Assembly (NCBI GenBank): GCA_902806095.1
Contig: CADCVF010000002.1
Span: 1 to 57,388 of the forward strand
Reading direction: 5' to 3'
DNA length: 57,388 nucleotides
From: an uncultured Rubrobacteraceae bacterium
Lineage (GTDB): Bacteria > Actinomycetota > Rubrobacteria > Rubrobacterales > Rubrobacteraceae
Shown here: positions 6,207 to 19,582 of the stretch, one piece after another
Position numbering within the stretch: the first letter of the stretch is position 1
Layout: each line of letters begins with the position of its first letter
Position numbers and translations under genes: made by a program
Notes under the pieces: model-generated
Seen by the model: only the letters and a program-made list of their open reading frames with translations
What the model was told of the DNA's origin: nothing
Database searches by the model: none

Positions 6207-7547
6207 TCAGGCTGCGCCGTCTACGGCGCGCCCGAGAACGGCCAGACCTTCCTCCAGCTCCTCGTCGGTGATGACGAAGGGCATCAGGGTGCGTATGCAG
6301 TTGCCGTACTGGCCCGCGCTGAGGAGCAGGAGCCCCTCCTGGAGGGCGCCCCCGATCACAGCCGCCGTTCGCTCCTTATCTGGGGTGCGGCTCTCTGCAT
6401 CCTTTACGAACTCCATGGCGGCCATCGGGCCTCTGCCACGCACGTCGCCGACGAAGTCGGGGTGCCGGTCCTGGATCTCGCGCATCGCTGCCATGACGCG
6501 CTCGCCGAGGACGTTGGCGCGCGCGAGGAGGTCTTCCTCCTCGAAGGCTTCGAGCACGGCGAGGGCGGCGGCGCAGGCTATCGGGTTGCCGCCGTAGGTG
6601 GTGCCAAGGCCCCCGACGTGGACGGAGTCCATGATCTCTGCTTTCCCCGTAACGCCGGCTATCGGGAGTCCACCGCCCAAGCTCTTGGCCGTCGTGAGGA
6701 TGTCAGGCTCGACCCCCGAGTGCTCGACGGCGAGCATCTTGCCCGTCCTGCCGAAACCCGTTTGGACCTCGTCCACGATCATCACGATGCCGTGCTCGTC
6801 GCACAGCTCCCGCAGCTTCCTCAGGTAGAAGTCAGGGAACGGTATGAAGCCACCCTCCCCGACCACAGGCTCCACGATAATAGCCGCGACGCTGCTCGGA
6901 TGCACCGTGCTCACGAAAGCCTTCTCGATGGACGCAAAGCAATCGCCCTGGCAGCCGCCGGAACAGTCCTTGCCCGCAGGGCAGCGGTACGCGTAGGGCG
7001 CAGGCACCCTGTAGACCTCGGGGACGAAAGGCCCGAAACCCTTCTTGTAAGGGTCAGTCTTTCCGGTCAGGCTCATCGCGAACATCGTGCGCCCGTGGAA
7101 GGAGTTCTCGAAAGCGATCACCGCCTGACGCCCCGTATAGTAGCGTGCTATCTTGGCCGCGTTCTCGACCGCCTCGGCCCCCGAGTTGACGAAGAACGAG
7201 CGTTTCTCCGTGTCTCCGGGTACCAGCGCATTCAGCTTCTCTGCTAGCTGTATATACTCCTCGTACTCTGTGACGTAGAAGCAGCTGTGGGTGAGTCTCT
7301 CGGCCTGTTCCTTTACCGCCTCGACCACCCGCGAGTCCGCGTGCCCGACGTTCATCACGCCGATGCCGCCACCGAAGTCTATGAACGTGTTGCCGTCGAC
7401 GTCGGTGAGCAGGGCGCCCTTCGCTTCCTTCGCGACCATCGGCGTCGCGATCCCAACCCCTGATGATACGGCGTTGTGCCGCCGCTCCATCAAAGCCAGG
7501 CTCTTCGGACCCGGTATCTCGGTCTTGATCCTCGTAGACTCAAGCAT
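6207..7547 (-). CDS. gabT: 4-aminobutyrate aminotransferase (GABA transaminase)
   Basis: This class III PLP aminotransferase of 446 residues has the GabT pattern: DGNTFIDFGGGIGVMNVGH, NSGAEAVENAAKIAR, AFENSFHGRT, IIVEPVVGEGGF, DEVQTGFGRTGK and the PLP lysine in TTAKSLGGGLPIAG. It would transfer the amino group of GABA to 2-oxoglutarate, giving succinate semialdehyde and glutamate. I chose ATG 7545-7547 because AGAGGTGG lies at the right distance; a GTG three codons upstream overlaps that site. The gene follows the amino-acid permease by about 120 bases, consistent with GABA uptake followed by transamination. The matching succinate-semialdehyde dehydrogenase appears to be at 38487-39953. A 5-aminovalerate activity is also known for this family. 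Confidence 0.92.
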   Translation of the reverse strand: MLESTRIKTEIPGPKSLALMERRHNAVSSGVGIATPMVAKEAKGALLTDVDGNTFIDFGGGIGVMNVGHADSRVVEAVKEQAERLTHSCFYVTEYEEYIQLAEKLNALVPGDTEKRSFFVNSGAEAVENAAKIARYYTGRQAVIAFENSFHGRTMFAMSLTGKTDPYKKGFGPFVPEVYRVPAPYAYRCPAGKDCSGGCQGDCFASIEKAFVSTVHPSSVAAIIVEPVVGEGGFIPFPDFYLRKLRELCDEHGIVMIVDEVQTGFGRTGKMLAVEHSGVEPDILTTAKSLGGGLPIAGVTGKAEIMDSVHVGGLGTTYGGNPIACAAALAVLEAFEEEDLLARANVLGERVMAAMREIQDRHPDFVGDVRGRGPMAAMEFVKDAESRTPDKERTAAVIGGALQEGLLLLSAGQYGNCIRTLMPFVITDEELEEGLAVLGRAVDGAA

Positions 7548-7666
7548 CGTCGCCACCTCTTCCTGTCGGGCTACTGCATTCCAGTATACCCGTCGTCAGC
7601 TCCCGGGCGATACCCCAGAGCGAGACGTATGCGGTGTGTAGAGCGTGAGGAGAGCAGGTCCGGGCA

Positions 7667-9127
7667 TCAGGAGGTTGTCTCCGACTCTCTTCTGGTCTCC
7701 GACTCACGGATTACCTCGGAAGGATCCCTCTGCGGTGGCCCGAACGCCTTGCGCAGCATGTAGGCCACCAGCATCACGCCGAGGCTTATGAGGCTCGCTA
7801 TCAACAGGGGACGCAGGCTGGAGATGATAGCCATCCCGATGAGCACCGCCACGATACCGACTATCGACAGGTACGTCAGCCACGGATAGAACCACATCTT
7901 CAGCTGCAGCCTCTCGGGCGCCTCGCGCTCCAGGCGGCGGCGCATCACGAGCTCCGAGATGGCGATCAGAAGGTAGACGAAGAGGGCTATGGCACCCGAG
8001 GCGTTGATCAGCCACGTGAACACCTCCGAGGGAAAGAAGTAGAAGATCGCAACGGACACGTACGCGAAGATGGTCCCTGTGAGGATAGCCCAGATCGGCA
8101 CGCCGCGCCTCGTCGTGTTGGTCATGAACCTGGGCGCGTCGTTGTGGCGGGTGAGGGCGAAGAGCATGCGGGAGGTCGTGTAGAGGCTGGAATTGAGGAC
8201 GGAGAGGACAGCGGTCAGGACTACGAAGTTCATCAAATCGGGCGCGAAGGGTATCCCCATCCTGTCGAACGCGAGGGTGAACGGGCTCTTGATGATGTCC
8301 TCCGTGAACCCTGTGTCCCATGGCACGATCGCCGCGACGAAGAAGACCGAGATCACGTAGAAGAGCAGGACCCTGTAGATGACCGCGTTAGTCGCCCTAG
8401 CGACGTTCCTCCCCGGCTCGTTGGACTCGGCGGCGGCGATGGTGACGATCTCCGCCCCGACGAAGGCGAAGATCACGGTCGCCACGCCGGAGAACATCGC
8501 CAGAGGACCGTTGGGGAAGAAGCCGCCATCCGCGTAGAGGTTCGAGAGACCCGGCGAGTTCCCGAGCGGCCACAGCCCGAACACGAACAACGCCCCGAGA
8601 CCGATGAACAGTATGATCGCCACGACCTTTATGCCGGCGAACCAGAACTCGAACTCGCCGTAGGAGCCGACGGAGTAGAGGTTGGTCGCCGTGAGGATCA
8701 ACACCAAGGCCAGGGCTATGAGCCAGGGCGCCACACTCGGTATGTACTGCCCCATGATGGACGCCGCCACCGTGGCCTCGAAACCGACCACGATGGCCCA
8801 GAAATACCAGTACAGCCACCCGATGGAGAACCCCGCCCAGTTGCCGAGAGCCATCCGGCCGTAGTCGGAGAAGGAGCCCACCGAAGGCTGGGCGACCGCC
8901 ATCTCCCCGAGCATCCTCATGATCAGGATGAGGAGGGCTCCGGTCAGTAGGTAGGTCAGTATGGTCGCCGGACCCGCCTGGTTGAGTATCGGCCCGGTCC
9001 CCACGAAGAGGCCGGCCCCGATGATCCCGCCGAGCGAGATCATGGTCATGTGCCGTCTTTTCAGGCCTGGTTGCAGGTGGCCTTCCTGGCCAGACCCGTC
9101 GCGCTTCTCTGCCGCCGCTTCAGCCAT
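7667..9127 (-). CDS. Amino acid permease (AAT family, GABA permease-like)
   Basis: The protein has 486 residues and about 12 hydrophobic segments. The N-terminal signature is LKRRHMTMISLGGIIGAGLF with VGTGPILNQAGPA after it, which is diagnostic of the amino acid transporter (AAT) branch of the APC superfamily (GabP, CycA, AnsP, LysP). IFAFVGAEIVTIAAAESNEP in the middle is the second family block, with the EIV(G/T)IAAAE motif. These are proton symporters for amino acids. The neighbouring gabT makes GABA a plausible substrate, but sequence alone cannot separate GABA, alanine or proline within this family. The start is ATG with GGAAGGGG just upstream. The C-terminus is short, charged and probably cytoplasmic. 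Confidence 0.9.
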   Translation of the reverse strand: MAEAAAEKRDGSGQEGHLQPGLKRRHMTMISLGGIIGAGLFVGTGPILNQAGPATILTYLLTGALLILIMRMLGEMAVAQPSVGSFSDYGRMALGNWAGFSIGWLYWYFWAIVVGFEATVAASIMGQYIPSVAPWLIALALVLILTATNLYSVGSYGEFEFWFAGIKVVAIILFIGLGALFVFGLWPLGNSPGLSNLYADGGFFPNGPLAMFSGVATVIFAFVGAEIVTIAAAESNEPGRNVARATNAVIYRVLLFYVISVFFVAAIVPWDTGFTEDIIKSPFTLAFDRMGIPFAPDLMNFVVLTAVLSVLNSSLYTTSRMLFALTRHNDAPRFMTNTTRRGVPIWAILTGTIFAYVSVAIFYFFPSEVFTWLINASGAIALFVYLLIAISELVMRRRLEREAPERLQLKMWFYPWLTYLSIVGIVAVLIGMAIISSLRPLLIASLISLGVMLVAYMLRKAFGPPQRDPSEVIRESETRRESETTS

Positions 9128-9157
9128 CTATTCCCCTTCCCTATCTCTACTCGCTCC

Positions 9158-9183
9158 GCGTGCAGCTTACACGTTATGCACGC
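9158..9183. repeat. Inverted repeat upstream of the permease gene
   Basis: Arms GCGTGCA (9158-9164) and TGCACGC (9177-9183) pair perfectly across 12 bases. It lies 30-55 bases upstream of the permease start and about 50 bases past the stop of the M24-like gene. There is no T-run on either side, so I favour an operator or processing hairpin over a terminator. Confidence 0.35.
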
Positions 9184-9232
9184 TCTTTTACAACATAGGG
9201 GCATCCGTCATGAAGGCGGGCCGGCACCAGCA

Positions 9233-10387
9233 TCAGACGACGATGAACTCCAGGGGCCGCGCGGAGAGAACCTCCCTCCCTGCACCGGTCACCAGGCAGG
9301 TGCGACCCAGGCTCATGGCGACCCCGCGCCCGGAGTCGGCCACCACGCAATGCAAGAAGAAGACCATCCTCGGCTTGGCCAACACGTGGTTCCCCGAGAA
9401 AAGCATCGGCCAGTCCATCCAGTTGGGGCTGAAGGTCGTGCCCAGAGAGTACCCGCACGCAGCGAAGCGATGCTCTTCTAGGCCCGCCGCGTCCAGTACG
9501 CGCCGATGGGCGTCGTCGACCTCACCGACAGGACGTCCCGGCGCCAGGGCTTCGGTCATCTCTTCGAGCGCCTCACGAACGGCGGAGAAGAGGTGGCGCT
9601 GGTAGTCCGAGGCCTCGCCCACGACCAGGGTGCGCATCATGGCCGCGTGGTAGTGCCTGTAGGAGCCTGCCCACTCCAGGGACAACTGGTCGACAGGGTC
9701 CATGCGTCGCATCCCTGCGGCGGAGCGGAACAGGAGGGCGCGCGGGCCCGAGCCGATGATCACCTCGTTCGCGGGGAAGTCCCCGCCGCCCTCGAAGATC
9801 GCGCCCTGCAAGGCCGCCAGGATGTCACCCTCGAAGACGCCAGGCGCCGCCACCTCCACTGCCCTGTCCAGGCCGAGATCCGCGAGGCGTGCGGCTTCCC
9901 GCACGTAGGCGATCTCGGCTGGGGACTTGATCACCCGCAACCTGCTTACGAGGTCCGAAGCCTCCACCAGCTCGCAGAAGCCATCGAGCGCGGTCTCCAC
10001 GCGCTTGAGGTTGTAGCCCGTGAGGCCGTAGGCGTCAGTCTCTATCCCCAGACGCTTGCCCCGGCAGCCGTGCTCTTCGAGGACCTCCCTCAGATCAACG
10101 GCGGGATCTGCGCCCTCTGCGTCAAACCAGACCCTGATGTCCTCGACCACCGAGGTATGCTCGGCTTGGCGCACGTCAGGGGTGCGGGTCAGGAGCGTGA
10201 GGTCCTCGCCATCAGCGTCCATGTAGAGGCACTGGAAGAAGACGTAGCCGAACGTGTCGTACCCGGTGAGGTAGTACATCGACTCCTGGCGGAACATGAG
10301 CAACCCGTCGAGGCCGCGCCCTGCCAACTCTCCTGCGGCGGCCTTGCGGCGGGCCGCCAGTTCTTCCGAAGCGAAGTGCAAGGACAC
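9233..10387 (-). CDS. M24-fold hydrolase lacking metal ligands (creatinase / ectoine hydrolase-like)
   Basis: The 384-residue protein has a creatinase N-terminal domain (SMYYLTGYDTFGYVFFQ near residue 36) and a pita-bread M24 domain. In metal-dependent members (prolidase, aminopeptidase P) five Asp/His/Glu residues hold two metals. Here the corresponding places read LSLEWAGSYRHYHAAMMRT, CGYSLG, VFFLH and AMSLGRT, so none of the five ligands is present. That matches the non-metallo branch, creatinase and ectoine hydrolase (DoeA/EutD), which open amidine or lactam-like rings without metal. The GYSLG-x(5)-NW region looks more like DoeA than creatinase. It starts at GTG, 18 bases after a FAD amine oxidase gene, and probably shares its transcript. 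The substrate is unknown. It is not a proline peptidase by active-site criteria. Confidence 0.75.
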   Translation of the reverse strand: MSLHFASEELAARRKAAAGELAGRGLDGLLMFRQESMYYLTGYDTFGYVFFQCLYMDADGEDLTLLTRTPDVRQAEHTSVVEDIRVWFDAEGADPAVDLREVLEEHGCRGKRLGIETDAYGLTGYNLKRVETALDGFCELVEASDLVSRLRVIKSPAEIAYVREAARLADLGLDRAVEVAAPGVFEGDILAALQGAIFEGGGDFPANEVIIGSGPRALLFRSAAGMRRMDPVDQLSLEWAGSYRHYHAAMMRTLVVGEASDYQRHLFSAVREALEEMTEALAPGRPVGEVDDAHRRVLDAAGLEEHRFAACGYSLGTTFSPNWMDWPMLFSGNHVLAKPRMVFFLHCVVADSGRGVAMSLGRTCLVTGAGREVLSARPLEFIVV

Positions 10388-10405
10388 GGCTCTAGGCTAC
10401 CCGAG

Positions 10406-11638
10406 TTAGGTCACAGACATGGCCGGAATGCCATAGTAGCCGCCGTAGAACGCCTCGCTCTCACGCCTGACCCAGCCACGGTCGGAAGCCTGCTCTCCGA
10501 ACCGCTCCAGGCCGAGCGAGGACAGGTCTTCTCCCGGGTCGCCACGCGCGATCCAGCCGGCCAGCCAGCTGCCTACCGCGGCGGAACCCGCGATGCCGAG
10601 AGCTGCGCATCCTGTGGCTGCGAAGAGGCCCTCGACCTGCGGCACGGGGCCGATCAGGTATGCCCCGTCGGGGGCGAAGGTCGTAAGCCCACGCTTGTAG
10701 GCGGATATCTCGAGGTTTCTCAGCACCGGGAAGACGGGGGCCAACCTCTCGCTGGCCTCCTCCATAATTTGTACCGGTTCCTCGATATCCGCCGTGTGGA
10801 ATCCGGCGGGCAACTCGAGGTCGTAGCTCGTCGGATCCGGCTCGAAGAACCCGTACAGGTAACCTCCCTCCTCCGGCCTGAGATAGCAACTCGCGTCGGT
10901 AACGCGGACGACGGGGTGGTGGTCAGGGATGCCCGAAACTGGGACCGTGGTGACGCGTTGGTGGCGAATGGGCACCATCGCCGTCCGATGACCCGCCATC
11001 TCGGCGAGGGTCCCCGTCCAGGGTCCGGCCGTCACCACGACGTTCTCCGCCTCGACGAAACCGTCGTCGGTCTCGACCCTCATCACCCGGCCGTCCATTA
11101 TCGAGAGTCCGGTCGCTGCCGTGCCCGTCCTGATTCTGACGCCAAGATCCTCTGCGGCGCAGCAGAAGGCCCGCGCGCATCGTCGAGGGTCTAGGTAGCC
11201 GTCCTCAGGTACGAAGTACCCGCCCTCGACCTGCGAGACGTCAAGGTGCGGCGCCAGCGTGGACATCTCCGCATCGTCGACAAAGCTGGCCTCCACGCCG
11301 CTACCGTTCGCGTGCTCGACGTGCTCCTCGAAGGAGACCATCCGTTCGGGATTTTGGGCCAGCAGCAGGCTGCCGACCTGGCGGAAGCCGGGGTCGTGGC
11401 CGGTTTCGCTCTCGAAGTCCAGGAACAGGTCAATGGCGTATCTGATCGCGCGCCTCATGAGTGGGGTGGCCCGGATCTGCCCGACCAACCCGGCGGCCTG
11501 GGAGGTCGTCTCGTCGAACAGAGTGCCGTTGCGCTCCAGGACCTGCACGTCCGTCCATCCGGCTCGCGCCAGATGGTAGGCGGTGCTCAGTCCCCAGATG
11601 CCGCCGCCCACGATCACAACGCTCGCTCGTCGGCTCAT
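10406..11638 (-). CDS. FAD-dependent amine/amino-acid oxidoreductase (DAO, sarcosine oxidase/dehydrogenase-like)
   Basis: The 410-residue protein begins with the dinucleotide-binding fingerprint VVIVGGGIWGLSTAYHLAR and an acidic residue at VLERN, and has the DAO-family C-terminal block FAPDGAYLIGPVPQVEGLFAATG. Members oxidise secondary or primary amines next to a carboxylate (sarcosine, glycine, D-amino acids, proline), making an imine. Conserved His near EMAGHRTAMVPIRHQ resembles the substrate-binding region of sarcosine oxidase beta subunits. There are no heterotetrameric partner genes (soxA, soxG, soxD), so it would be monomeric. The downstream M24-like hydrolase could supply its substrate: creatinase makes sarcosine, for example. 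That pairing is inference. The start is ATG with GGGTGAC upstream. Confidence 0.85.
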   Translation of the reverse strand: MSRRASVVIVGGGIWGLSTAYHLARAGWTDVQVLERNGTLFDETTSQAAGLVGQIRATPLMRRAIRYAIDLFLDFESETGHDPGFRQVGSLLLAQNPERMVSFEEHVEHANGSGVEASFVDDAEMSTLAPHLDVSQVEGGYFVPEDGYLDPRRCARAFCCAAEDLGVRIRTGTAATGLSIMDGRVMRVETDDGFVEAENVVVTAGPWTGTLAEMAGHRTAMVPIRHQRVTTVPVSGIPDHHPVVRVTDASCYLRPEEGGYLYGFFEPDPTSYDLELPAGFHTADIEEPVQIMEEASERLAPVFPVLRNLEISAYKRGLTTFAPDGAYLIGPVPQVEGLFAATGCAALGIAGSAAVGSWLAGWIARGDPGEDLSSLGLERFGEQASDRGWVRRESEAFYGGYYGIPAMSVT

Positions 11639-11729: not shown

Positions 11730-12851
11730 TCAATTCAGAAGCTTCTCTGCATCGGTGTACGAGAGGTCGTGGGCCTCGGCGACAGGCTCGGAGACGAGAT
11801 CCCCCCTGAGCGTAGAGAGTCCTTTGGCCAGGGCCTCATCTTCGGTAGCCGCGCCCTCGATACCTTTGTCGGCTATTTTGATCAAGTAGGGCAACGTCGC
11901 GCTGGTCAGGGCCAGCGTCGAGGACCTCGCCACAGCACCTGGTATGTTGGCCACGCAATAATGGACGACGCCCTCTTCGACGTACGTGGGATCGGAGTGC
12001 GTCGTCGGCCTAGCCGTCTCTATGCACCCGCCCTGGTCGATGGCGACGTCGGCGACCACGCTCCCCGGGCGCATGCTCGCGACCATCTCGCGCGTGACGA
12101 GCTTGGGCGCTTTGGCCCCGTGCACGAGCACGGCCCCTATGACCACGTCGGCCTGTCTGACGTAGGCGGCGGTCCTGGCCCGGTTGGGTATCACGAGGTC
12201 GGCCCTCCCCTCGAAGATGTCCGAGAGGTAGGCGAGCCGCTTGGGGCTGATGTCGAGCACGCTCACGAGTGCCCGCATGCCGAGAGCTATCTTGGCGGCC
12301 TCGGTGCCGACGACCCCGCCGCCGATGATCGTGACCTTCGCCGCAGGCGTCCCCGGCACGCCTCCGAGCAGGAGCCCCGCACCGCCTTGCGGGCTCTCGA
12401 GGTGGTGCGCCGCCGCCTGTACGGACATCCTTCCGGCCACCTCGCTCATGGGCGTGAGGAGCGGCAGAAGCCCATCAGGCGTCTCGACCGTCTCGTAGGC
12501 GATGGACTGTATCCTGCGCTCCATCAAGAACTCCGTGAGACCCTTGTCAGCGGCCAGATGTAAGTAGGTGAAGAGCTGCTGGCCCTCCCTGAAGCGGTCG
12601 TACTCCTCGGGGACGGGCTCCTTGACCTTCACAATCAGATCCGCGGCCTCAAAGACCTCCTCAGGCCCGTCGACGAGCCGCGCCCCCGCCTCATCGTACT
12701 CCCCGTCGGAGAAGCCCGCGCCGTCTCCGGCACCGGCCTGGACATATACCTCGTTGCCGTAATGTACCAACTCGGCAACGCCGTCAGGCTGCATGGAGAC
12801 GCGGCCCTCCATGTCCTTGATCTCCTTGGGCACCCCTATTACTGTCGCCAT
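11730..12851 (-). CDS. ald: Alanine dehydrogenase
   Basis: This 373-residue NAD-dependent enzyme has the usual length. Landmarks are IGVPKEIKDMEGRVSMQP at the N-terminus, where the Lys/Arg bind pyruvate, LFTYLHLAAD with the catalytic His, the Rossmann fingerprint IIGGGVVGTEAAKIA, and the Asp/Gly-rich VADVAIDQGGCIETARPT block. It interconverts L-alanine with pyruvate and ammonium. In this setting it can regenerate pyruvate, or remove alanine formed when transaminases use pyruvate as acceptor, as putrescine:pyruvate transaminases do. It has a clear own promoter (12890-12918) overlapped by an inverted repeat. Downstream minus-strand genes (FAD oxidase, M24, permease, gabT) may be read through from it. 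Confidence 0.95.
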   Translation of the reverse strand: MATVIGVPKEIKDMEGRVSMQPDGVAELVHYGNEVYVQAGAGDGAGFSDGEYDEAGARLVDGPEEVFEAADLIVKVKEPVPEEYDRFREGQQLFTYLHLAADKGLTEFLMERRIQSIAYETVETPDGLLPLLTPMSEVAGRMSVQAAAHHLESPQGGAGLLLGGVPGTPAAKVTIIGGGVVGTEAAKIALGMRALVSVLDISPKRLAYLSDIFEGRADLVIPNRARTAAYVRQADVVIGAVLVHGAKAPKLVTREMVASMRPGSVVADVAIDQGGCIETARPTTHSDPTYVEEGVVHYCVANIPGAVARSSTLALTSATLPYLIKIADKGIEGAATEDEALAKGLSTLRGDLVSEPVAEAHDLSYTDAEKLLN

Positions 12852-12889: not shown

Positions 12890-12918
12890 CTTATAGCAAG
12901 GTTACTATAAACGTGCAA
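12890..12918 (-). promoter_or_regulatory. Promoter of ald with overlapping inverted-repeat operator
   Basis: On the minus strand, TTGCAC (12913-12918) and TATAAG (12890-12895) are 17 bases apart, and the expected start of transcription leaves a leader of about 30 bases. A perfect inverted repeat, TTATAG (12891-12896) and CTATAA (12905-12910) with an 8-base spacer, covers the -10 box and part of the spacer. A regulator bound there would block RNA polymerase. Confidence 0.6.
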
Positions 12919-14935: not shown

Positions 14936-15316
14936 CTCACTGATTCCTCGGTCTGGCGAGGTTGAGTGTGGTCCCGGCCGCGCATGCAAAGCAGGACGCC
15001 GTCCTGACGCCAGGCTCGCCTGCCGTTCTCCCAACTATCGTTCTCACTCCTTCCGAGTTGCCCGGAGCTTCTCTTTGTCTCACCATCATAGCGGGCAGAC
15101 GTCTGCCAAGCGTTACGAAGAGCGTTACGATCGAGAATTTCTGGCAACCACGCGAGATTGTCTTCGCATTGCAGCCCTTGACTCGCAGCGCGGCGAACAC
15201 CCTCCTTCACCCGGTGAGCCCCCACCGAACAGTGGATGCTTGTTTTTGTCGTGAAACCTTTACAATAAGGGTTCAAGCATACAGGGACCGGCATTGCGGG
15301 CGCGACGGGAGATGCA
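14936..15316. other. Intergenic control region between the sensor-like gene and the MerR-XRE-cupin regulator
   Basis: This 381-base gap separates divergent genes. It holds a perfect 14-base palindrome (15094-15107) followed at once by two direct copies of AGCGTTACGA (listed separately). A TACAAT near 15261 could be a -10 element for the regulator, but I see no matching -35 at 16-18 bases. No credible gene is present. Confidence 0.5.
15094..15130. promoter_or_regulatory. Candidate operator: 14-base palindrome plus tandem direct repeat
   Basis: GGCAGACGTCTGCC (15094-15107) is a perfect palindrome. AGCGTTACGA then occurs at 15109-15118 and 15121-15130, with a 12-base period, so the copies would lie on nearly the same face of the helix. 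The position between divergent genes, one encoding a DNA-binding protein, fits an autoregulatory site. Confidence 0.45.
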
Positions 15317-16132
15317 TTGGCACAGGGAAGCGGTTCGATGGGATTCTCCATTGGCGAGGTCTCACAGGCGGTAGGGCTTGCGCCGCAGACTTTGAGGTTG
15401 TGGGAAAGGGAGCGCCTGATCACACCCCGCAGGACGGACCGGGGCTACAGGCTGTACTCGGAGCCCGACGTACAGCGCCTGCGCGAGATCAAACAGCTCA
15501 GGAAGGTCGAGGGCCTGAACTTCGCGGCCATACGCAAGCAGCTAGGCAGCCCGCCGGAGACGACCAGCCCCAATGGATCGGCGCGCGGCGGACCGTCAGG
15601 GGCGCCGGGGGAGCGCTTGCGGAGGCTCAGGATCAAGGCCCACAAGACGCTGAAGGAGGTCTCTGAGGCCACTGGGCTCTCTATCTCGTTTATCTCCGCG
15701 CTCGAGCGAGGGGGTTCGGGAGCTTCGGTCGCGTCTTTGCGGCTGCTTGCGGAGGCTTACGGGGCGAACATGCGCGAGGTGTTCGGCGCCGACCTGGAGC
15801 AGAGCACGCCGCTGGTGCGGGGCGCCGACAGGCCCGTGATGCAGTGGGATAACGGCGTACGCTTCGAGGAGATGGCCTCGGGTGAGAAGGTCATGGATCC
15901 TTCCTACATAAAGGTGCCTTCCGGCGCGGGGAGCGAGGGTTTCTACTCCCATAACGGGGAGGAGTTCATCTACGTGATCTCCGGCCGGCTGTTCGTTGAG
16001 CTAAAGGACCACGGAACGTTCCAGGTAGCACCCGGCGACACCCTCTATTTCCCCTCGACCACCCCGCACCGCTGGTGGGCCGGCGAGGAGCCCGTCGAGG
16101 CCGTCTACGTCAACACCCCGCCGACGTTCTAA
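15317..16132 (+). CDS. Three-domain transcription regulator: MerR-type HTH, XRE-type HTH and cupin
   Basis: Three modules can be read in 271 residues. Residues 9-75 are a MerR winged helix (FSIGEVSQAVGLAPQTLRLW, then GYRLYSEPDVQRLREI). Residues 100-155 are an XRE/Cro helix-turn-helix (LRRLRIKAHKTLKEVSEATG, then ISFISALERG). Residues 195-268 are a cupin_2 barrel (HNGEEFIYVISGRL, then PGDTLYFPSTTPHRWW), whose His/Glu residues could bind metal or ligand. XRE-cupin is the layout of PuuR, the putrescine repressor of E. coli; an extra MerR reader in front is unusual. The start is TTG 15317, or ATG 15338 with GGGAAG upstream. It sits two genes before the amine-catabolism cluster, in the same orientation, and is my best candidate for its regulator. 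Confidence 0.85.
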   Translation: MAQGSGSMGFSIGEVSQAVGLAPQTLRLWERERLITPRRTDRGYRLYSEPDVQRLREIKQLRKVEGLNFAAIRKQLGSPPETTSPNGSARGGPSGAPGERLRRLRIKAHKTLKEVSEATGLSISFISALERGGSGASVASLRLLAEAYGANMREVFGADLEQSTPLVRGADRPVMQWDNGVRFEEMASGEKVMDPSYIKVPSGAGSEGFYSHNGEEFIYVISGRLFVELKDHGTFQVAPGDTLYFPSTTPHRWWAGEEPVEAVYVNTPPTF

Positions 16133-16147
16133 CCAGGGCAGGATCTC

Positions 16148-17974
16148 GTGCCCCACGACCTCGAGCTCGACGCCCTGCTCTCGATCCCAGCTCTCTTCGC
16201 GCCGCGAGTCTCGCCCGACGGAAAGTGGGTGGCGTGGAGCTGGTCGCGCCTCGGGCCGGCCGCGGACGTGTTCGCAGCACCCACCGATGGCTCGCAGCCT
16301 CCCCTCCGCCTTACTGAGACCTTAGAGGGGGACACCATGGTCGTCTCCTGGACCCCGAACAGCGAAGCAGTCCTGGTATCTGAGGACAGAGACGGCGATG
16401 AGCGCGTCAGGCTCTTCCGGGTCAGGCTCGCGGAGCCGGGGGTGATGGAGCCGCTAACCGGGGCTGCCCCGAACTATTATCTGCGGGGCGGCGAGTTGCA
16501 TCCGAACGGACGTTGGCTGATCTACGCCGCCAACCTCGACGCCGAGAGCGGAGAGGAGATCGAGACCGACCGGCTCTACAGGCATGACTTGCAAACGGGT
16601 GAAAGAATGGTGCTGGCCAGACCCGAGAAGGGTAGTATCCCCTGGCCCGAGCTGAACCATCAGGGTACCCACGTACTCTACTCGCGCAACGAGTCGCACC
16701 CGGCCGGACAACAGATCTGGCTGGTGGACATAGAGGGTCTCGAAGACCGTGAGATCCTGAACTTCGGCCCGCGGCTCAAGGTCTCGGCCTCCTGGTTCCC
16801 CGACGGACGCAGGGTCCTCTTCGTCGCCGAGGCCGAGTCCTATCGCAGGCTAGGCTTGTGGAGCATGGACGAAGAGCCCGTACGCTGGCTCGTAGAAGAT
16901 CCAGCCCGTAGCATCGAATACTCCTTCGCTCCCCCGAACGGCGGCCCTGTAGTCGTAGTAGGGGTCGAGCAAGCCAGGGTAAGAGCCTCGCTGCTCGACG
17001 TGCAGAGCAGCGCCGAGACCTCACTGCAGCACTCTAGAGGCAACCTCATACCGCTGGCCAAGGTCGACGACGGCGAATGGATCTGTACTTACTACGACGC
17101 CCTTCATCCCGTTGACCTCGTACACTATGGCGCAAATGGCGGCGCGCCGGCGAGCCTCACAGGCCTGCCGGAAAGGATGGACATAGACGAGGAGCGGCTC
17201 GTCGCAGCCGAAGACTTCCGCTGGCGCTCTGTCGACGGCCTGGAGGTACAGGGTTGGCTCTACAGAACACGCGGTGAGAAGCTTGGAACAATCGTCTTGA
17301 TCCACGGCGGCCCGACCAGCCATGCCGAAGACCGGTTCAACGCCCAGATCCAATACCTGGCCTCGCGCGGCTTCGACGTGCTGGCGCCGAACTATAGGGG
17401 CAGCACGGGGTTCGGGCTCGCTTTCCAGGAGTCAATAAAGCATGACGGCTGGGGCGGTCGGGAGCAGGAAGACATAAGGTGTGGGATCGAAGCGCTGATC
17501 GAAGCCGGCGCGGCAGAGCACGGACGCGTGGGCGTTACCGGCACCTCCTACGGCGGATACTCGGCATGGTGGGCTATAACCCACTACGAGCCCGCCGCTG
17601 CGGCCCCGATCTGCGGGATGACAGATCTCGTACTCGACTACTACGCGACGCGCCCCGACCTCAGGCCCTACAGTGAGGAGATGATGGGCGGCTCACCCGA
17701 GGATGTCCCCGACCTCTACCGCAACCGGTCTCCGATCGAGTTCGTAAACAACATCAAAGGGAAACTCCTGATCGTCCAGGGCTCGAAGGACCCGAACGTG
17801 ACACAGGACAACGTCCAAGCAGTTACGAAAGCCTTGCAACGCGAGAACATCCCCTACGAACTCATCACCTTCGACGACGAAGGCCACGGCATCGCCCGCC
17901 CGAAGAACCTGCGCGTCCTCTACCCGCGCCTGGCCGACTTCTTCCACAAGGCTTTCGACGTATCTTCTCGATGA
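16148..17974 (+). CDS. S9-family prolyl oligopeptidase-like serine peptidase
   Basis: The 608-residue protein has an N-terminal seven-bladed propeller (repeated SPDGKWVAW, WTPNSEAVLVSED, HPNGRWLIYAA, WFPDGRRVLFVAE strands) and a C-terminal alpha/beta-hydrolase domain. Catalytic residues are visible: Ser467 in GTSYGGY, Asp548 in GSKDPNV and His580 in EGHGIA, with the oxyanion HGGP motif near residue 384. This is the acylaminoacyl-peptidase / dipeptidyl-peptidase branch, which cuts short peptides. No signal peptide is seen, so it is cytoplasmic. It follows the MerR-XRE-cupin regulator by 15 bases and is probably co-transcribed with it. Whether it belongs functionally to amine catabolism is unknown. 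Confidence 0.93.
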   Translation: MPHDLELDALLSIPALFAPRVSPDGKWVAWSWSRLGPAADVFAAPTDGSQPPLRLTETLEGDTMVVSWTPNSEAVLVSEDRDGDERVRLFRVRLAEPGVMEPLTGAAPNYYLRGGELHPNGRWLIYAANLDAESGEEIETDRLYRHDLQTGERMVLARPEKGSIPWPELNHQGTHVLYSRNESHPAGQQIWLVDIEGLEDREILNFGPRLKVSASWFPDGRRVLFVAEAESYRRLGLWSMDEEPVRWLVEDPARSIEYSFAPPNGGPVVVVGVEQARVRASLLDVQSSAETSLQHSRGNLIPLAKVDDGEWICTYYDALHPVDLVHYGANGGAPASLTGLPERMDIDEERLVAAEDFRWRSVDGLEVQGWLYRTRGEKLGTIVLIHGGPTSHAEDRFNAQIQYLASRGFDVLAPNYRGSTGFGLAFQESIKHDGWGGREQEDIRCGIEALIEAGAAEHGRVGVTGTSYGGYSAWWAITHYEPAAAAPICGMTDLVLDYYATRPDLRPYSEEMMGGSPEDVPDLYRNRSPIEFVNNIKGKLLIVQGSKDPNVTQDNVQAVTKALQRENIPYELITFDDEGHGIARPKNLRVLYPRLADFFHKAFDVSSR

Positions 17975-18016: not shown

Positions 18017-18037
18017 TGTGTATTCTGCGAATACACA
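18017..18037. promoter_or_regulatory. Candidate operator: perfect 9-3-9 inverted repeat
   Basis: TGTGTATTC (18017-18025) and GAATACACA (18029-18037) are exact reverse complements around TGC. There is no T-run, so a terminator is unlikely. It lies about 105 bases upstream of the -35 box of the amine-cluster promoter and 43 bases past the S9 peptidase stop. Confidence 0.5.
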
Positions 18038-18141: not shown

Positions 18142-18170
18142 TTGACCGCTTTACAGTAACTGTGTAGTAT
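18142..18170 (+). promoter_or_regulatory. Promoter of the amine-catabolism cluster
   Basis: TTGACC (18142-18147) and TAGTAT (18165-18170) are 17 bases apart; transcription should start near 18177, about 40 bases before the aminotransferase ATG. The spacer contains a small palindrome, ACAGT-A-ACTGT (18153-18163), where a repressor could bind. The boxes match those of the pxp promoter exactly. Confidence 0.65.
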
Positions 18171-18217: not shown

Positions 18218-19582
18218 ATGGATGTGATGAGGGGTCTTGAGGAGCGCGGGAACGGCAAGCCGCTCTCTGGTGTGGAGAACCTGATGCTTCACTTCACGCC
18301 TTATGACGAGGACTGGTCGAAGCTGCCTGTTATCGTCTCTGGTGAGGGGTGCTACGTCACCGACGACAAGGGCAACTCTTACATAGACGGGCTTGCCGGG
18401 CTCTTCACGACGCAGGTCGGGCACGGCAGGAGCGAGCTGGCCGAGGTCGCTGCGAGGCAGATGAAGGAGCTTGGGTTCTTCCCCAACTGGAGTTTCCAGC
18501 ACCCGCGCTCGCTGGAGCTTGCGGCCAAGATCTCGGAGATAGCGCCGGGGGACTTGAACAGCACGTTCTTCGTCTCCTCCGGGTCCGAGGCTGTGGAGAC
18601 CGTCATAAAGCTTGCCAGGCAGTATCACAAGACCAACGGCGAGCCGGGGCGATACAAGATCATCTCCAGGGACGTGGCCTACCACGGGACGACGATGGGT
18701 GCTCTCTCGGCGACGGGGCTGCCCGGCTTCAAGGCACCGTTCGAGCCGCTTCCCTCGGGCTTCTTCCACGTGAGGAACACCCAGCAGGATCCTGATGGAG
18801 CGGCCGACGCGATCGAGCAGATGATCGAGGCCGAAGGCCCTGAGCTCGTCGCCGCCGTTATCCTCGAGCCGGTCCAGAATGCCGGTGGCTGCCTCGTGCC
18901 GCCGCCCGAATACTGGAAGAAGGTACGCGAGATCTGTGACCGTCATGGTGTGCTGCTGGTCTCCGACGCGGTGATCTGCGCCTTCGGCCGACTCGGCGAG
19001 TGGTTCGGCATCGAGCGTTTCGACGTGGTCCCCGACATGACGAGCTTCGCCAAGGGCGTCACATCGGGCTACCTGCCCATGGGGGGCGTCGTCGTAGGCG
19101 ACAAGATGGCATCCACCCTCAAGGAGAACGCGCCGATGTTCATGCACGGCTCGACCTTTGGGGGGCACCCGGTGTCCTCTGCGGTGGCGCTAGAGAACAT
19201 CGCGATCATGGAGCGCGAGAAGTTGCTCCAGAACGTCCACGACCTCGAAGGGCATTTCGGGGACGAGCTCGGACGCATGGCGGCCGACCATCCGGTCGTC
19301 AAGGAGGTCAGGGGGATGGGCTTCTTCTGGGCCGTCGAGATCAACCCCGAGAAGGCCGACGGCACGCCGCTGGAGGGCGACGAGTACCAGAAGTACTTCA
19401 AGGGCGTGGTCTCGAGGAAGCTCATGGAGGGCGGCCTGATCTGCCGCTTCGACGATAAGGACGATCCCGTGATCCAGTTCTCCCCCGCGCTCGTCTCGGA
19501 CAAGGAAGTCCTCAGCCGCATAGCAGAGATCACCGATGGCGCCCTCACCGAGCTCGAAAAGCAACTCGGCTACAGAAACTAG
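18218..19582 (+). CDS. Class III aminotransferase, putrescine/omega-amine:pyruvate type (SpuC-like)
   Basis: The 454-residue PLP enzyme has the omega-transaminase pattern: HFTPYDEDW near the N-terminus, DGLAGLFTTQVGHGR, SSGSEAVETVIKLARQYH, DVAYHGTTMGALSATG, EPVQNAGGCLVPP and the PLP lysine in SFAKGVTSGYLPMGG. The Asp that holds the pyridine nitrogen lies in SDAVICAFGR, where most relatives read DEVITGFGR. The family includes putrescine, spermidine and beta-alanine:pyruvate transaminases; SpuC makes 4-aminobutanal from putrescine. The start is ATG with GGAGG upstream, behind a good promoter. It opens the cluster and is followed 12 bases later by a FAD oxidase. Assignment to putrescine rests on context. 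Alanine formed here could be recycled by ald. Confidence 0.88.
   Translation: MDVMRGLEERGNGKPLSGVENLMLHFTPYDEDWSKLPVIVSGEGCYVTDDKGNSYIDGLAGLFTTQVGHGRSELAEVAARQMKELGFFPNWSFQHPRSLELAAKISEIAPGDLNSTFFVSSGSEAVETVIKLARQYHKTNGEPGRYKIISRDVAYHGTTMGALSATGLPGFKAPFEPLPSGFFHVRNTQQDPDGAADAIEQMIEAEGPELVAAVILEPVQNAGGCLVPPPEYWKKVREICDRHGVLLVSDAVICAFGRLGEWFGIERFDVVPDMTSFAKGVTSGYLPMGGVVVGDKMASTLKENAPMFMHGSTFGGHPVSSAVALENIAIMEREKLLQNVHDLEGHFGDELGRMAADHPVVKEVRGMGFFWAVEINPEKADGTPLEGDEYQKYFKGVVSRKLMEGGLICRFDDKDDPVIQFSPALVSDKEVLSRIAEITDGALTELEKQLGYRN

Follow-up and report, generated by a model that had tools for sequence, protein, structure and literature searches.

The gene at 15317-16132 on the plus strand of the window (the whole 57,388-nucleotide stretch of Rubrobacteraceae DNA analysed here) encodes a protein that carries a MerR winged helix, an XRE domain and a cupin barrel in one chain. 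From sequence comparisons, we consider it probable that this protein acts locally as a repressor of amine catabolism and of its own gene; it would block RNA polymerase through the motif TTACARTAANNNTGYAR and would be released by a ligand from the amine pathway. The prediction names three promoters, a single motif and the direction of regulation, which makes an unusual domain fusion a testable regulator.

Domain organization and distribution of the regulator

The gene and the parts of its product are as follows.

15317-16132, plus strand: MerR-XRE-cupin regulator gene, 271 residues, TTG start (Pfam, orthologues)
15344-15538, plus strand: MerR_1 winged helix, residues 10-74, with no long dimerisation helix after it (Pfam, model)
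15539-15607, plus strand: variable and disordered linker (residues 75-97) with a mean pairwise identity of 0.25 (model, alignment)
15608-15781, plus strand: XRE/HTH_3 domain, residues 98-155 (Pfam, model)
15908-16111, plus strand: Cupin_2 barrel, residues 198-265 (Pfam, homologue comparison)

The triple-domain layout read in an earlier note from the sequence alone is borne out, since all three domains exceed the Pfam gathering cut-offs: MerR_1 at residues 10-74 (E 8.6e-22), HTH_3 at residues 101-154 (E 2.2e-13) and Cupin_2 at residues 198-265 (E 2.7e-15). The TTG start at 15317 is supported by a GGGAG sequence just 5' of it and by an ATG at the equivalent place in two orthologues. The three folds are also seen in a structure predicted from 18 homologues (mean pLDDT 86, pTM 0.44), values that make the individual domains reliable but not their mutual arrangement. 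Among the features that mark the MerR family, the N-terminal winged helix is present by Pfam, and no long helix follows it in the model, in which helices at 42-58 and 62-69 give way to a disordered stretch (76-87) and then to the XRE domain. HTH_3 followed by Cupin_2 in one chain, the mark of XRE-cupin proteins, is found in the regulator and in 18 of 18 homologues. Across 23 Rubrobacteraceae orthologues, mean pairwise identity is 0.78 in the MerR domain (0.91 in its recognition helix), 0.25 in the linker, 0.83 in the XRE domain and 0.72 in the cupin; both heads are therefore kept while the linker is free to vary. Cupin residues H205, E209 and H244 (model numbering, counted from the Met codon at 15338) are invariant in 18 of 18 homologues. 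HppE is among the top fold matches of the model, and a His/Glu/His set of this kind binds metal in HppE; by analogy, the invariant residues of the regulator may perhaps hold a metal too.

The source genome groups with the Rubrobacteraceae. Full-length orthologues at 66-86% identity occur in 21 of 35 other genomes of the family, with one more at 51%, and the fusion is therefore not an assembly artefact. In wider samples, full-length relatives were found in 25 of 396 Actinomycetota genomes (23 of the 25 being Rubrobacteraceae), in 5 of 398 genomes from the phylum of an Oscillospiraceae genome (L052) and in 10 of 247 from the phylum of a genome titled Acidobacteria (L053); outside the Actinomycetota, the full-length fusion thus extends to some Bacillota and Acidobacteriota. 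Each of the members put through profile scans (18/18) has the three domains. How common the fusion is, a question raised by the earlier note, can thus be answered: it is conserved in Rubrobacteraceae and present in other phyla. A tree built from the XRE-cupin part groups the fusions together (support 98/94), with a single long-branched outsider among them, a pattern compatible with a single old fusion event. As far as sequence can tell, the MerR-XRE-cupin architecture is old. The literature searched, a scope outside which most subscription papers lay, yielded no report of such a fusion.

Genomic context

The neighbourhood of the regulator consists of the following features.

11730-12851, minus strand: alanine dehydrogenase-like gene, first of the leftward arm (assigned by sequence; relatives have syntenic orthologues)
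6207-11638, minus strand: remainder of the leftward arm
10406-11638, minus strand: FAD oxidoreductase, leftward arm
9233-10387, minus strand: M24 peptidase, leftward arm
7667-9127, minus strand: amino acid permease, leftward arm
6207-7556, minus strand: class III aminotransferase, leftward arm
16148-17974, plus strand: S9-family peptidase
18218-19582, plus strand: class III aminotransferase gene, with which the main target operon is predicted to begin
19595-43698, plus strand: amine-use cluster

The amine-use cluster holds genes for an FAD oxidoreductase, an amine oxidase, PotA, PotD, PotB, PotC, an aminotransferase and a permease, together with a copper amine oxidase, agmatinase, aldehyde dehydrogenases and others; the cluster genes scanned included no other regulator. 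Because the minus strand to the left also carries amine genes, the regulator is internal to the locus and not at its edge. The earlier note had placed the regulator two genes upstream of the cluster; a single gene, that of the S9 peptidase, separates it from the aminotransferase, and several relatives have no S9 gene at this place. The order alanine dehydrogenase-regulator-(peptidase)-aminotransferase-Pot is common to 19 Rubrobacteraceae genomes, as far as contigs reach and with insertions in some, and in these 19 the alanine dehydrogenase is divergent from the regulator.

The regulator is placed elsewhere in genus g2 and in genome G011. In the latter (L097:4738-10138), the 51%-identical orthologue stands beside genes for L-carnitine dehydrogenase, BKACE and a BCCT transporter, which suggests that this regulator may have moved to carnitine use. 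Acidobacterial homologues often adjoin class III aminotransferases, one of which scores above the GABA transaminase cut-off, and PotABC lies beside one of these homologues. Others have as neighbour a hydantoinase-like gene or one for a Phenol_Hydrox monooxygenase; in two Actinomycetota genomes outside the Rubrobacteraceae, the homologue is transcribed divergently from an operon for a monooxygenase of the Phenol_Hydrox type (L217:8624-11291). From these neighbours, the family is catabolic and linked to amines mainly in the Rubrobacteraceae locus and in Acidobacteriota. Conservation without amine genes nearby, which the earlier note would have counted against its own reading, is thus seen in the wider family, with its monooxygenase, hydantoinase-like and carnitine neighbours, and not in most Rubrobacteraceae orthologues.

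A 17 bp motif shared by three promoters

Comparison of upstream regions revealed that the 17 bp motif TTACARTAANNNTGYAR is repeated in the promoters of the alanine dehydrogenase, the regulator and the aminotransferase.

12902-12918, plus strand: motif TTACTATAAACGTGCAA, alanine dehydrogenase promoter
15260-15276, plus strand: motif TTACAATAAGGGTTCAA, 5' of the regulator gene; autoregulation predicted
18151-18167, plus strand: motif TTACAGTAACTGTGTAG, promoter of the aminotransferase operon

At up to one mismatch, TTACARTAANNNTGYAR has seven matches in the 3.8-Mb genome, three of which are these promoters; the pattern read backwards has none at the same stringency. Across the Rubrobacteraceae, exact matches all lie upstream of the aminotransferase or the alanine dehydrogenase at the cluster locus. 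Of the four near-matches outside the cluster, one is intergenic, two are inside ORFs and one runs across the end of an ORF, and a global regulon was rejected on these grounds. The 'master switch of the amine cluster' proposed in the earlier note is accordingly supported as a local switch, by synteny and by the motif shared among three promoters, and is too broad in its wider sense, with one of four near-matches outside the cluster promoters clearly intergenic. The intergenic one is the motif-like TTGCAATAACTGTGTAG on the minus strand at L154:1103, in the region before an FTR1-like permease gene of the source genome.

We scanned the relatives with one genome left out at a time and a threshold at 99% of the null. 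Where the regulator is syntenic, the motif exceeded the threshold in 13 of 13 aminotransferase, 17 of 18 alanine dehydrogenase and 18 of 19 regulator promoters, the same site possibly counting for both of the latter in adjacent layouts, where the two genes share one intergenic region. Where the regulator is absent or elsewhere, this was so in 0 of 10 aminotransferase and 0 of 8 alanine dehydrogenase promoters, and relocated regulators had it in 0 of 4 of their own promoters; these genome counts are not independent, since regulator and motif may have come to occur together through one or a few events in evolution. In the source window and in L098 the regulator and the alanine dehydrogenase stand apart, each promoter with a motif of its own. 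Genomes G002 and G005 have the motif and no regulator was found in them, with contig ends nearby, and they were kept out of both groups. Genus g2 keeps a regulator with conserved recognition helices, and no motif was found upstream of it. Targets next to the regulator's own gene are what the shared motif at adjacent promoters would point to.

In several genomes without the regulator, or with a moved one, the same aminotransferase is accompanied by a GntR-FCD gene in divergent orientation and by a TCGTCGAC element. In L158:8398-9159, L161:7777-8616 and L165:7700-8656, the GntR-FCD gene is divergent from this aminotransferase, with a promoter of the TCGTCGAC...ATACAGTATA type. In these relatives regulator and operator appear to have been swapped together, and the locus would be a natural case of an operon exchanging both.

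Two other candidate operators were rejected. Within 15094-15130, a region that the earlier note proposed for gel shift, a 14 bp palindrome (GGCAGACGTCTGCC) precedes a direct repeat of AGCGTTACGA; the other candidate, at 18017-18037 upstream of the aminotransferase, is a perfect palindrome with 9 bp arms, TGTGTATTCTGCGAATACACA. Neither was found in the relatives searched and they are thus not considered to be used as operators; the site at 15260-15276 does recur.

A similar motif beside homologues outside the family

Judged against dinucleotide shuffles at a threshold of p 0.05, the Rubrobacteraceae matrix matched 7 of the 11 promoters of acidobacterial regulators and the single promoter (1/1) from another Actinomycetota clade, and 0 of 9 promoters of Bacillota homologues. 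The score of 6 attained by the seven acidobacterial promoters was found in 3 of 99 control upstream regions (Fisher p 1.1e-6), controls that came largely from the same loci and were not restricted to true promoters. The acidobacterial sites overlap TATAAT-like -10 boxes, which possibly inflates their scores; since relatedness and -10-like content weaken the comparison, these matches are support and not proof. Three Acidobacteriota genomes (L232, L236 and L237) have a palindrome of the AACCTTGC-TATAATnnn-GCAAGGTT type around the -10 box upstream of the homologue.

Promoter geometry and mode of regulation

In the aminotransferase promoter, the motif lies between a -35 box TTGACC (18142-18147) and a -10 box TAGTAT (18165-18170), with a spacer of 17 bp; on the minus strand, the alanine dehydrogenase promoter reads as TTGCAC (12918-12913), 17 bp and TATAAG (12895-12890). 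Among the aminotransferase promoters of 17 genomes, the motif starts three bases past the -35 box in all 17 and the spacer is 17 bp in 15, an 18 bp reading fitting the -10 box better in two; the motif fills the 17 bp spacer and overlaps the -10 box. MerR activators act on promoters with 19-20 bp spacers (PMC8113463), and such spacers were not seen at these 17 aminotransferase promoters. The position of the motif in a 17 bp spacer suggests that the protein obstructs RNA polymerase in the manner of XRE-cupin repressors, and not that it untwists promoters in the MerR manner.

The regulator could instead be a MerR-like activator that untwists its target promoters upon amine binding to the cupin, the XRE head serving as anchor. 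The motif does lie between -35 and -10, as MerR sites do, the MerR winged helix and its recognition helix are strongly conserved, and no clear -35 box can be assigned at the regulator's own promoter. The prevailing 17 bp spacer and good -35 boxes of the aminotransferase promoters, the 17 bp reading of the alanine dehydrogenase promoter against the 19-20 bp of MerR promoters (PMC8113463), and the disordered linker in place of a long dimerisation helix all argue against it, and we regard the untwisting put forward in the earlier note as very improbable. That a different protein, for example of the Lrp/AsnC type, reads the motif while the fusion protein acts on other targets or on its own gene alone seems unlikely: strong matches are confined to the cluster locus, the scan of cluster genes revealed no other regulator and a similar motif stands beside acidobacterial homologues. 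In favour of such a reader, the association of regulator and motif is purely one of co-occurrence, and genus g2 keeps the regulator without the motif.

A somewhat less remote reading, and one compatible with repression, is that the two heads read different elements, bridging two operator types or two half-sites. Both helix-turn-helices are highly conserved on either side of a variable, disordered linker, a second CCTTG-N-AAGG element occurs in the alanine dehydrogenase promoter of several genomes, and some acidobacterial promoters contain AACCTTGC...GCAAGGTT. Yet some relatives lack the second element (several read CGTTG), it overlaps the -10 box, no equivalent was found at the aminotransferase promoter and one motif accounts for all three promoters, so that we hold this reading as tentative. 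Equally speculative is a class, crossing phyla, in which MerR and XRE heads act jointly on composite or paired operator elements under one cupin sensor; if true, such a repressor with two readers would have no described counterpart.

We favour steric repression, relieved by a metabolite of the amine pathway, because of the 17 bp spacer and the precedents of PuuR and other XRE-cupin proteins. We infer that the fusion protein is the reader of the motif, that it represses and that it regulates itself. It would bind TTACARTAANNNTGYAR at the promoters of the alanine dehydrogenase, of its own gene and of the aminotransferase-oxidase-PotABCD operon, and there block RNA polymerase. An amine or a breakdown product, our guess for the ligand, would enter the cupin barrel, perhaps together with a metal on His/Glu/His, and release the regulator from DNA; the MerR head might, at a guess, add affinity or read part of the site. 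Alanine dehydrogenase in the same regulon would fit an aminotransferase that makes alanine from pyruvate.

Comparison with known systems

XRE-cupin regulators of Pseudomonas are local repressors, three of them with palindromic sites, and are thought to occlude promoters, while PuuR leaves DNA on sensing putrescine (PMC7901475). The regulator resembles Pseudomonas PauR, PA0535, ErfA and PsdR (PMC7901475) in its HTH_3 and Cupin_2 domains, its predicted adjacent metabolic targets, a dyad-like site, polyamine links and likely promoter occlusion, which here is predicted; it differs in the sequence of the site, in the operon and in a MerR head that the Pseudomonas proteins do not have. Its XRE-cupin half (residues 96-268) aligns with E. 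coli PuuR, and putrescine-use genes are adjacent in both, in keeping with the PuuR-like logic of the earlier note; the extra MerR head and the aminotransferase and oxidase genes, in place of the gamma-glutamyl genes of PuuR, set it apart, and it is not a PuuR orthologue (NCBIfam NF007408, 35.7 bits against a cut-off of 211). HspR and structures of GlnR/TnrA rank among the best MerR matches and, like other short MerR-type domains, share a winged helix without a long coiled coil; the MerR head of the regulator differs in being fused to XRE-cupin, and an assignment as HspR was rejected (NF047375, 60.8 bits, below the cut-off of 105). The Vibrio cholerae XRE-cupin structure 1Y9Q has the same XRE-cupin fold (Foldseek E 4.4e-13) and no MerR head, and structure searches, including Foldseek, found no solved structure with all three domains. 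The papers searched likewise offered no model for the control of polyamine use in Rubrobacteraceae. With its added MerR head the regulator would be a new form of XRE-cupin repressor, and the proposed mechanism would give a first model both of an XRE-cupin regulator with two heads and of how Rubrobacteraceae control polyamine use.
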